NCBI RefSeq assembly: GCF_026810225.1 | Contig: NZ_CP113865.1 | Span: 1,880,001-1,944,000, forward strand | Direction: 5' to 3' | Length of the DNA stretch: 64,000 nt | Source: Caldicellulosiruptor morganii | Lineage (GTDB): Bacteria; Bacillota; Thermoanaerobacteria; Caldicellulosiruptorales; Caldicellulosiruptoraceae | Shown here: piece by piece, positions 60,672-63,327 of the stretch | Numbering within the stretch: the first letter of the stretch is position 1 | Layout: the number at the start of each line of letters is the position of its first letter | Notes under the pieces: model-generated | What the model saw: the letters and a program-made list of their open reading frames with translations, nothing else | Database searches by the model: none | Told to the model about the DNA's origin: nothing | Made by a program: the position numbers and the translations under genes

Positions 60672-62846
60672 TTATCTTTTAATATTTACCAAATCCTGCA
60701 AAAGTTCATCAGATGCAGTTATAACCCTTGCATTTGCCTGATAACCCCTCTGGGTTACAATCATATCTGTAAACTCCCTTGCTAAGTCAACATTGGACAT
60801 TTCCAGCATTCCTTGAGCTATTGTACCTCGAGAACCAGAACCTGGTGTTCCAATCTCAGGATTACCTGAGTTGGCAGTGTTTATATAAAGATTATCCCCA
60901 ATCCTTTGAAGCCCTGCAGGGTTTGCAAATGTTGCAAGAGCAATCTGAGCTATCTTTTGTCTATGACCGTTGGAGTATATACCATTGATAAAACCAGCTG
61001 GATCAATCTCAAAACCCATAAGATCTCCTGCAGTATATCCATCTACCGATAAAATTTTAAGTTCATTGTTCCCATTATACTGGGTGATTTTGCTCAAGTC
61101 AAAAAGCTTATCAGGATCAAATAAATCAAAAACTATATTTTTGACATCTCTTTCAGTTCCATCTCCCAATTTAATAGTAAATTTTTTTTCAGGATTAGCT
61201 GTATAATTATCCTCATAATTACCCAGAACCTTCAAACTATCACTTTTAATACTCCCATCATTGTTAAACTCAAGTAGTCCATATGCTATAAACTTATTAG
61301 ATTTCTCAGGATCAGTATTTTGGTATAATCTTTCATCAATATATTTACCATCTGATCCTCTCATCCCATCAACAATCCATTCCCATTGGTTAACCCCGAG
61401 TTTTACAAACATAAGTTGAAGAGTATGTTCGCTTCCCTGGCTATCAAAAATTTTAAATGATGTGGAATAAATGTCATTTGGAGAAACCTGTTTTAAGACA
61501 TTGTAATCACTTATTGTAAAAGGCAAGCTTTTTTGTAAATATATTGTATCTACTGGCATTTCAGGATTCTGTGAAGGTTTTGTAAGAGTTAATTGAGTAT
61601 TGTTGTTACCTGGTATAATATACTGATTACTAGGATTCCAATCTATTGTTGTGTAGTTTTTACCCCCATCTGTACTGTATTTGTAGTTTTTACCATCAAA
61701 ATATATTTTTAGAGTATCATACCCCTCCAATGAACCATTCAAAATGATTCCTGTGTCTTTTAGAGTTTCATTATTAAATGTTTTTGCTTCAGTCAAAACT
61801 AAATTATCTTCAGCATCACTATTAGGATCAACAGCTTTTTTTTCAAGTGTTAAACCATTACTTAGTACAGCTTTGTTCCCATCCCACTGGGTTATCTCTA
61901 TCCAGTTGGAGTCTCTATCAGTCTTATACATGTACTTCTTATTGGCACTATCATATTTTACAGACAACTGTGTAGCTCCATCACTTCCATAGTAATTCCC
62001 TGTCACCGTTATACCTGTATTTGTTAATGACACTGGATTTGAATTAAAATTTTTATACTGCTTTAACTCTACTGTGTCCTCGGGCACACGAGTAACAACA
62101 GTTGGCTTCTCAAGGGTTAATCCATTTAAATTGAATTTGCCATCAGGATCCCAATTTATTTTAATAAAACTCCTACCACCATCAATACTATATTCATAAA
62201 TGCTACCATCATATCTCACTGTTAAATTTATATCACTTTCACCATTATAGGTTCCATATATTTTTATACCCGTTTTAGATAATAATATTTTCCCTATATC
62301 AAATTCATTATTCAAATTACCACCAAACACTATTTTGGAAGTCGGCTCAGCACCCATTGGATTATAGTTTGTGATATTTATCTTGTCCAGTTTTTTGCTT
62401 ATTTGGTCTGTCTTAGGATCATATGCATACCCCAGAACATACAATCCATTTGCCGTAATAAGATATCCTTCCTTATTTAAACTAAAATTCCCTGCCCTTG
62501 TAAATCGTGGTGCTTTCCCATCACCACCAACCACAAAAAATCCATCACCCTCAATTGCCAAATCAGTTAAATTGTCTGTTCTCTGTAAACTACCTCTTGC
62601 CATATTCAAATCAGTTGATGCAACATTTACGCCTAAACCAATTTGCATAGGGTTAAAACCGCCCCTGCCAGAGGTTGTATCGGGTGCAGAGGCTGCTTTT
62701 ATAACAGACGCAAACACAGATGCAAAAGTCACTCTGCTTGATTTAAAACCAACTGTATTCACATTGGCAATATTATCACCTATTACATCCATCCTGGTCT
62801 GGTGTGCACGAAGCGCTGAAATTGACGAAAACATTGACCTCATCAT
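60672..62846 (-). CDS. flgE: Flagellar hook protein FlgE, enlarged by internal repeats (724 aa)
   Basis: Main hook subunit. The N-terminus MMRSMFSSISALRAHQTRMD and VIGDNIANVNTVGFKSSRVTFASVF, and the C-terminus ELLQDLVNIKR with EFTDMIVTQRGYQANARV, are the conserved rod/hook D0-D1 parts, with a FlgE-D2-like stretch around YSTSFKIFDSQGSEHTLQL. Between about residues 187 and 430 lie three diverged copies of an 80-90 residue unit (pattern TGIxxxGxYxG...YxYSxDGGxxW/FxxIxW...LTLxK). FlgE is usually 260-450 residues. ATG 62846 follows AGGGGGGA; the longer frame to 62894 overlaps a hairpin leader and is rejected. Confidence 0.9.
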   Translation of the reverse strand: MMRSMFSSISALRAHQTRMDVIGDNIANVNTVGFKSSRVTFASVFASVIKAASAPDTTSGRGGFNPMQIGLGVNVASTDLNMARGSLQRTDNLTDLAIEGDGFFVVGGDGKAPRFTRAGNFSLNKEGYLITANGLYVLGYAYDPKTDQISKKLDKINITNYNPMGAEPTSKIVFGGNLNNEFDIGKILLSKTGIKIYGTYNGESDINLTVRYDGSIYEYSIDGGRSFIKINWDPDGKFNLNGLTLEKPTVVTRVPEDTVELKQYKNFNSNPVSLTNTGITVTGNYYGSDGATQLSVKYDSANKKYMYKTDRDSNWIEITQWDGNKAVLSNGLTLEKKAVDPNSDAEDNLVLTEAKTFNNETLKDTGIILNGSLEGYDTLKIYFDGKNYKYSTDGGKNYTTIDWNPSNQYIIPGNNNTQLTLTKPSQNPEMPVDTIYLQKSLPFTISDYNVLKQVSPNDIYSTSFKIFDSQGSEHTLQLMFVKLGVNQWEWIVDGMRGSDGKYIDERLYQNTDPEKSNKFIAYGLLEFNNDGSIKSDSLKVLGNYEDNYTANPEKKFTIKLGDGTERDVKNIVFDLFDPDKLFDLSKITQYNGNNELKILSVDGYTAGDLMGFEIDPAGFINGIYSNGHRQKIAQIALATFANPAGLQRIGDNLYINTANSGNPEIGTPGSGSRGTIAQGMLEMSNVDLAREFTDMIVTQRGYQANARVITASDELLQDLVNIKR

Positions 62847-62891
62847 TTTTCCAAAAATCCCCCTTTTAAATTGCTTAAAATATCTACATCT

Positions 62892-62964
62892 CAAACCTTC
62901 CCTCTGTCAGTCAGGAAGGCCTTTTTCTTCACGGGGGACCTCCCACCTGTCGGGTCCATCCCCC
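62892..62964 (-). ncRNA. Paired-hairpin leader before flgE (candidate structured RNA or leader peptide)
   Basis: On the minus strand, GGACCC and GGGAGGTCC flank a loop to form one stem, and CCTTCC/GGAAGG flank a second stem, in the 124-base gap between the upstream gene and flgE. Inside, GTG follows GGGAGGT at good spacing and opens a 13-codon frame (VKKKAFLTDRGKV). It could be a leader peptide, a regulatory RNA or a repeat element. It does not match the c-di-GMP-I riboswitch motifs I can recognise. Confidence 0.4.
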
Positions 62965-62970
62965 TCTTTT

Positions 62971-63327
62971 TTATAGCATCAAAACTCCATCTATGTTGGT
63001 GAATATGTTATCCCTCAGGCTGTTTACATTTTTTGCTGTCACAAGCACTCTGTTTTTTACATTAACAATGTATACAACATCTCCGTTTAGAACCAATACA
63101 TCATTCTTAAGACCTTTCTGCTCAGCTTTTTCAATGGCCTGCTCAAGCTTTGCCAAAATATTTTTGTCAATATTGATATTCTGGGTATTTATCCTGCTGT
63201 TTGCATGCTTTGAAATCTTGAGGTTTTGAGAAAGCAAATTTGCAAAACTTTGATGGTTATCTTTCTTTTCAGTCTTTGTATAGTTTGGTTTTTCAGAATT
63301 TATATTGCCAATTCTGTTTATGGTCAT
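62971..63327 (-). CDS. TIGR02530 flagellar operon protein
   Basis: A 118-residue protein of the family usually found between flgD and flgE in Firmicutes. Contains NIDKNILAKLEQAIEKAEQKGLKNDVLVLNGDVVYIVNVKNRVLVTA, the conserved part; the N-terminal half is polar and low in complexity. Function is not known but its place is conserved. It overlaps flgD by four bases. Start at ATG 63327. Confidence 0.85.
   Translation of the reverse strand: MTINRIGNINSEKPNYTKTEKKDNHQSFANLLSQNLKISKHANSRINTQNINIDKNILAKLEQAIEKAEQKGLKNDVLVLNGDVVYIVNVKNRVLVTAKNVNSLRDNIFTNIDGVLML

Follow-up and report, generated by a model that had tools for sequence, protein, structure and literature searches.

Two hairpins ahead of flgE, and in many relatives also ahead of flgG, form a structured RNA that co-occurs with the TIGR02530 protein family

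Introduction

What does the structured gap ahead of the flagellar hook gene flgE do in Caldicellulosiruptor morganii? FlgG, of the distal rod, and FlgE, of the hook, are related axial proteins that are assembled in succession. To our knowledge, little has been established about how Clostridia and many other flagellated bacteria control their supply of rod and hook proteins, beyond transcription and the CsrA-FliW system. In the window (the whole stretch of 64,000 nucleotides analysed here), 124 bases separate the stop codon of a TIGR02530-family gene from the start of flgE at 62846, and they hold two hairpins. A sequence-only reading of positions 62892-62964 had pointed to these hairpins and to a short GTG-initiated frame, and had proposed that RNA folding or leader translation could set the level of hook protein. 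Here we ask whether the RNA, the peptide or neither has been conserved, how far the element reaches and which partner it may have.

Results

The two-hairpin element and its neighbours

Both hairpins before flgE are present, and the fold as well as covariation in relatives bear them out. The sequence-only reading had assigned no strand; the stretch 62892-62964 belongs to the minus strand, like flgE itself. Table 1 lists the parts of the region.

Table 1 Features of the region upstream of flgE in the window
Feature	Coordinates	Strand	Basis or observation
TIGR02530/PF12611 family flagellar protein, 118 aa (candidate RNA partner)	62971..63327	-	profile matches, AlphaFold model, co-occurrence
Hairpin 1	62933..62964 (62964-62933)	-	fold; kept in 13/13 family members; broad covariation
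Hairpin 1 outer stem, GGGGGA/UCCCCC		-	fold
Hairpin 1 asymmetric internal loop, GGA opposite AG(G)	62957-62955 (GGA)	-	fold
Hairpin 1 apical stem, CCC(G)/(U)GGG		-	C-G to U-A in 4/13 family members
Hairpin 2	62894..62921 (62921-62894)	-	fold; covariation
Hairpin 2 stem GGCCUUCC/GGAAGGUU enclosing loop UGACUGACAGAG			broad consensus of loop YGA-N-YGAY-N-GA
13-codon GTG frame	62894..62932; stop codon TGA 62893-62891	-	in 1/13 family members
flgE ribosome-binding site, AAAAGGGGGA	62858..62867	-	sequence; duplex energies
flgE, flagellar hook protein, 724 aa	60672..62846	-	NCBIfam FlgEFG_subfam above cut-off

Among the best-scoring models for the product of 60672..62846 are the FlgE equivalogs, which stay under their own cut-offs. 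By eye, the middle of this protein (minus strand) contains about three similar stretches, each with 'TGI..G' and 'LTLEK/LTLTK' patterns, an internal repeat within the variable region of the hook protein. The 118-aa protein encoded upstream passes the PF12611 cut-off and reaches 81.9 bits against TIGR02530, slightly below the cut-off of 83.2. Hairpin 1 follows its gene closely, the GGA of the internal loop beginning 13 nt past the stop codon.

The 73-nt stretch folds with an energy of -32.0 kcal/mol, equalled by 2 of 200 dinucleotide shuffles (z -2.78). With flanks included (62840-62990, minus strand) z is -1.99, and a slightly shifted plus-strand stretch (62860-63010) gives -0.95. Folding energy by itself is modest evidence, and we judge the hairpins decisively real because of the comparison with relatives described below.

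The possibility of a repeat element, also raised by the sequence-only reading, failed: BLAST and covariance models agree on one copy in the window's own genome, which rules out a dispersed repeat. BLAST found no second copy there, and the covariance model of the genus no other match below E 1. The broad model introduced below gave a sole other near-threshold match (E 0.012, at C1:272091), which we discount as chance: it lies inside a large open reading frame, by eye a type I restriction subunit. Between 62700 and 63100 there is no sigma-70 promoter pattern and no GC-rich stem followed by a T run, and an intrinsic terminator or attenuator is thereby ruled out. At the gathering threshold Rfam 15 yielded no match in the window or in 20 loci, which excludes a known Rfam family; at E<=10 only matches far under the gathering scores appeared, none of them plausible. 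The view that the hairpins fit no recognised riboswitch class thus survives these scans, and as an RNA family the element appears to be new. In a literature search that left most subscription papers and a 2017 survey of 224 RNAs outside, it was not described among the matches listed.

Conservation of the hairpins but not of the 13-codon frame

The region is present in all 11 other genomes of the genus that were searched and in one genome of another genus of the same family. All 13 family members keep both hairpins; the spacers vary. In the 13-sequence alignment 12 cells are changed on both sides of a pair, against 4.1 in shuffles (0/500 reach the observed count), and hairpin 2 has such double changes at 4 of its 9 pairs. 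The number of pairs with double changes, 5, is reached by 24 of 500 shuffles, and the count of further pair types by 313 of 500. The model built from these sequences scores the window's element at 83.7 bits, the window sequence itself being part of the model. In family members 23-50 nt separate the end of the element from flgE, and the ribosome-binding site is left uncovered.

The sequence-only reading had also remarked on a ribosome site and a GTG opening a 13-residue frame. Both the GGAGG and the frame, which ends at TGA (62932-62891), are present in the window, but a role as a leader is not borne out, with the frame found in one of the 13 family members. Reading instead from an ATG in hairpin 1 gives frames of 3 to at least 60 codons among the 13, one row starting with CTG. 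With neither frame conserved, a leader-peptide attenuator is ruled out. Since the hairpins are kept in 13/13 with paired changes and the frame in 1/13, it is the RNA that has been selected and not the peptide; we judge the GTG frame to be incidental to the function.

Reach beyond the genus and covariation in a broad alignment

Of 37 genomes in the class, the 13-sequence genus model picks up 18 at E<=0.1. These include every one of the 12 genus members and one further genome from the family; the other five, of a second family, match weakly (about 24 bits), directly upstream of flgE. To look further, 80 named loci from many groups were fetched via the TIGR02530 protein and the gap between TIGR02530 and flgE was read in each. 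By eye, most have the same design. A strict pattern finds both hairpins in 46 of them, from Lachnospiraceae and other Clostridia, Pectinatus, Pelosinus, Tissierella and Ignavibacteria records. Another 26 carry hairpin 1 only (by a relaxed pattern the stem is present, and the strict hairpin 2 is absent); this relaxed set adds Chloroflexi and Capsulimonas records. The remaining 8 have TIGR02530 and show neither hairpin, hairpin 1 being missed by the relaxed pattern as well (L033, L044, L050, L056, L057, L081, L102 and L110). In L102 and L110, both Lachnospiraceae, TIGR02530 adjoins flgE and the gap contains no recognisable element.

Throughout this set hairpin 1 consists of a stem, a Y-R pair (C-G or U-A; G-C in Ignavibacteria), an internal loop of GGA against purines, CC/GG and a loop, and hairpin 2 of a stem around YGA-N-YGAY-N-GA. 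For alignment, 67 of 103 examined loci were picked by a pattern that holds the conserved loop letters and GGA[CT]C/GG of hairpin 1. Alignment A2 contains 50 of the 67; the 17 dropped are 7 of the 12 rows of the window's genus, 5 from a single nearby genus, 4 named rows that are identical or nearly so, and L089, which has a long loop. Alignment A3 has 45 sequences and equals A2 minus the remaining five rows of the window's genus, in which hairpin 1 is shifted by one base.

In the 45 sequences 92.2% of cells pair. Double-changed cells number 195, against 58.6 +/- 8.1 in shuffles (0/500), and the covariation score is 0.691, against 0.208 in shuffles (0/500) and at most 0.186 in slid controls. Double changes occur at 12 of 15 pairs, a less telling count that 47 of 500 shuffles reach, and at all 6 modelled pairs of hairpin 2. 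Conservation and compensatory stem changes in relatives had been set beforehand as the test of the hairpins, and the 13- and 45-sequence alignments alike supply them. G-U cells outnumber A-C cells by 24 to 12, a modest sign in favour of the sense strand. The loop bases stay constant and the stems change, which we read as the mark of a binding site. The invariance of the loop letters is partly by construction, since the selection pattern includes them; the covarying stems lie outside the pattern.

The window's genus represents a variant: its hairpin 1 has an internal loop larger by one base, its linker is longer, and for this reason the broad model, built without the genus, scores the window's element at only 23.7 bits (E 0.01). 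The element nevertheless fits the two-hairpin definition, having the GGA/purine and YGA-N-YGAY-N-GA loops between an upstream stop codon and flgE or flgG, and aligns with its 12 relatives.

The broad model was also run on 15 whole genomes, mostly of other phyla. Eleven match at E<=1, five of these below 1e-3 (four Ignavibacteria-like records and one Chitinispirillales record); three weaker matches overlap open reading frames, and four genomes have no match. In the class of G290, the genome of Ignavibacteria record L101, a match at E<=0.01 occurs in 29 of 149 genomes, and flanking genes were read for L210 alone. We conclude that the two hairpins form a genuine structured RNA, and that it occupies the same position in many bacteria that are only distantly related.

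A second home before flgG

Of 249 genomes from the phylum, 175 have a match to the broad model at E<=0.1, and many of these have two. Twenty copies away from TIGR02530, hand-picked from among the matches listed and not drawn at random, were fetched, and all 20 precede flgG: every downstream protein exceeds the FlgG cut-off of TIGR02488, and in 18 cases the upstream open reading frame looks FlgF-like by eye. Each of these copies is either on a different contig from TIGR02530 or separated from it by at least about 18 kb. Alignment A5, made of 17 of them (L170, L172 and L179 excluded), has 50 double-changed cells against 14.7 in shuffles (0/500), and its count of further pair types is reached by 10 of 500; having been found with the broad model, the copies are biased towards its structure. 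With few exceptions, the loci examined thus have the element before an axial-protein gene, flgE or flgG. The window's own genome has the flgE copy only, neither the genus nor the broad model finding one before flgG.

Two further placements were seen. Genome G071 has three good copies, one before flgE (L190), one before a flgG-like gene (L201) and one after a flgF-like gene (L207), where the downstream open reading frame does not look flagellar. At L214 (G285:C7:87825) the element lies between a fliE-like end and a flgF/flgG-like gene, a third kind of placement.

The element follows TIGR02530 and not CsrA

Among the same 249 genomes TIGR02530 is present in 182, FlhA in 208 and CsrA in 176. In the FlhA-positive genomes, the element occurs in 167 of 176 with TIGR02530 and in none of 32 without it (Fisher value 7.6e-30, which overstates independence as the genomes are related). 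The 32 are spread over 16 families, four of which (f17, f33, f35 and f46) also contain genera positive for both TIGR02530 and the element. Because these families hold both states, the data suggest that element and protein were gained or lost together more than once. Co-inheritance through adjacency is insufficient to account for the link, because the flgG copies are not next to TIGR02530.

Nine of the 176 are exceptions. Full scoring or the genus model recovers the element in three (G007, G052, G210), and two show it weakly, G055 ahead of flgE and G221 ahead of a flgG-like gene; G068, G192, G226 and G250 have TIGR02530 and FlhA and no convincing element. In the opposite direction, G072 and G126 match the model at E 0.065 and 0.052 without TIGR02530 or FlhA. 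We attribute these two matches to chance: one best match overlaps an open reading frame, and the other precedes an unrelated-looking gene. At L029 (genome G035; family f3, genus g4), flgE comes straight after an apparent flgD end, and both TIGR02530 and the RNA are missing from between them; G014-G016, of the same genus, likewise match neither.

The distribution does not follow csrA. Within the FlhA-positive genomes the element is found in 0 of 23 that have CsrA and lack TIGR02530, and in 23 of 25 that lack CsrA and have TIGR02530, which speaks strongly against CsrA as the defining partner. CsrA was the one rival partner compared, and another co-inherited flagellar gene could encode the ligand.

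A possible RelE-like fold for the TIGR02530 protein

TIGR02530/PF12611 proteins have in common S-x-H-A-x2-R near the start of the domain and an FTNID tail. The AlphaFold model has a mean pLDDT of 75, with blocks of 85-93 over most of residues 41-118, and a helix-helix-four strands topology. In VIA-align, structures of RelE, HigB, ParE and YafQ take most of the top 25 places with Z 5.2-6.4; the same list contains type III pantothenate kinases up to Z 6.0, and Z below 8 may reflect a common arrangement only. Foldseek with the model found nothing at E<=0.001. Of three proteins compared with Pfam DUF4258, two have a weak match over the N-terminal motif (E 0.08-0.15, below the family cut-off); the window's own protein has none. 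In PMC11980606, DUF4258 appears among the BECR-fold families of the RelE/ParE superfamily. Taken together, these comparisons make a RelE-like, RNA-handling fold plausible, at middling confidence, for the predicted model.

A sequence search of the PDB gave four matches at E 0.2-0.45, CHMP3 each time, and none of the PADLOC families matched the protein. A literature search by the names TIGR02530 and PF12611 found no paper, and DUF3766 occurs once in the accessible part of a listing on Geobacter benzene metabolism.

Discussion

The element is probably a cis-regulatory mRNA element bound by a protein. In the reading that we prefer, it acts in cis to tune synthesis of the hook protein, and elsewhere of the rod protein, with TIGR02530 as its likely ligand; we put the chance that this is right at about one in two. 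The element would be transcribed within the flagellar operon, past the upstream stop codon and ahead of the ribosome-binding site of flgE, and in many relatives in the same position ahead of that of flgG. A flagellar RNA-binding protein, for which the neighbouring TIGR02530 product is the best candidate, would bind it by recognising the internal loop with GGA in hairpin 1 and the YGA-rich loop in hairpin 2. Binding would make the hook (and rod) cistron differ from its neighbours in how well it is translated or how stable it is. The TIGR02530 stop codon lies in or at the stem in 46 of 67 loci, with the GGA of hairpin 1 beginning 2-5 nt past it, and there a ribosome terminating the upstream gene would meet hairpin 1 immediately.

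The same closeness to the stop codon in 46 of 67 loci also suits a switch that needs no protein, in which hairpin 1 competes with the flgE ribosome-binding site: the ribosome finishing the upstream gene would open hairpin 1, and the freed arm would pair with the site and lower flgE translation. In the window this alternative pairing, between the 3' arm UCCCCC and the site, is possible by duplex energies, and across the genus, UCCCCC can pair with a GGGGGA site at -17.3 to -19.4 kcal/mol (11 listed). Among flgE sites that carry GGAGG (loci L033-L112), 26 of 48 continue with UC, against 5 of 177 sites of other genes at the same loci (Fisher p 3e-16), and the UC extension is complementary to GACCU of hairpin 1. 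Cis pairing also beats permuted partners, at -11.6 vs -9.6 kcal/mol over 63 loci (0/200) and, without the window's class, at -10.8 vs -10.2 kcal/mol over 44 loci (2/200). Related species nevertheless carry heavy weight in these pairing statistics, the excess over the sites of other genes is modest (p 0.017 on 41 loci, with 54 of 166 other windows equally strong), and none of the 18 flgG sites listed has GGAGGUC. Because of that modest excess and that absence we keep the pairing as a rival or as an addition to protein binding; as the whole explanation it is rather unlikely, leaving as it does the conserved loop of hairpin 2 and the link with TIGR02530 unexplained.

The products of the genes flanking the element are needed in different amounts, and cleavage by an RNase between the cistrons, or a block to exonucleases there, could give flgE or flgG mRNA a half-life unlike that of its operon neighbours. 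An intercistronic site with two stable stems and no terminator pattern would suit such processing, to which we give the same low odds as to the protein-independent switch: a mere barrier needs neither fixed loop bases nor one co-occurring protein family, and if the partner were itself an RNase, the explanation would merge with the protein-bound one. The call between RNA processing and protein-bound control with TIGR02530 is close, and we favour the latter. A small-molecule riboswitch of a class not previously described would fit the conserved loops and the missing Rfam match; the hairpins, though, are small and show no sign of an expression platform, and the targets are two axial genes tied to one protein family, which makes this improbable. 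The GGA would suit CsrA, acting perhaps with FliW, since GGA is the CsrA core motif in the accessible part of PMC4894983 and the window's genome has csrA. This is the least probable of the alternatives: the GGA sits in an internal loop and not in a hairpin loop, and the genomes that have only one of the two proteins separate in favour of TIGR02530.

Returning to a TIGR02530-bound element, a bolder version may be outlined, tentatively and with clearly less confidence than its parent. TIGR02530 may be a domesticated, non-toxin member of the RelE superfamily that reads a dedicated two-hairpin mRNA tag at the stop codon before flgE or flgG; working at the terminating ribosome or close to it, the protein would set how much of the last rod and hook subunits is made, or when. 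Such a protein would provide an assembly checkpoint at the RNA level in several phyla.

With a precisely located site, two target genes and a named protein of uncharacterised function as candidate partner, the element opens a post-transcriptional step in the building of the flagellum to direct testing. If the protein-bound reading is true, TIGR02530/PF12611 would gain its first function.

Several known systems invite comparison. The flg-Rhizobiales RNA motif, which is reportedly linked with flagellar genes, resembles the element in being a structured RNA with a flagellar-gene name. It differs in giving no match in the Rfam scans of the window and the 20 loci, its presence in Rfam 15 being assumed. 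The motif is named in PMC2864571; in the accessible part of that paper the words flagell, flgE and hook have no match, a word search that flg-Rhizobiales itself escaped. The control of flagellin mRNA by CsrA and FliW, as far as the accessible part of PMC4894983 describes it, likewise concerns a flagellar mRNA containing GGA, whereas the presence of our element is not tied to that of CsrA. TIGR02530 may resemble BECR-fold RelE/ParE toxins and DUF4258 in its predicted fold, and there is a weak N-terminal similarity. TIGR02530 departs from the toxins in its place in a flagellar operon and its conserved FTNID tail, and nothing suggests a toxic activity. Autoregulatory leaders of the ribosomal-protein type are structured mRNAs near the gene of their ligand, with covarying stems and fixed loops. 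The element stands apart from them in lying after the gene of its suspected ligand, in having flagellar axial targets and in belonging to no Rfam family, but it shares their main traits: it is found near the gene of the suspected ligand, its stems covary and its loops are fixed.
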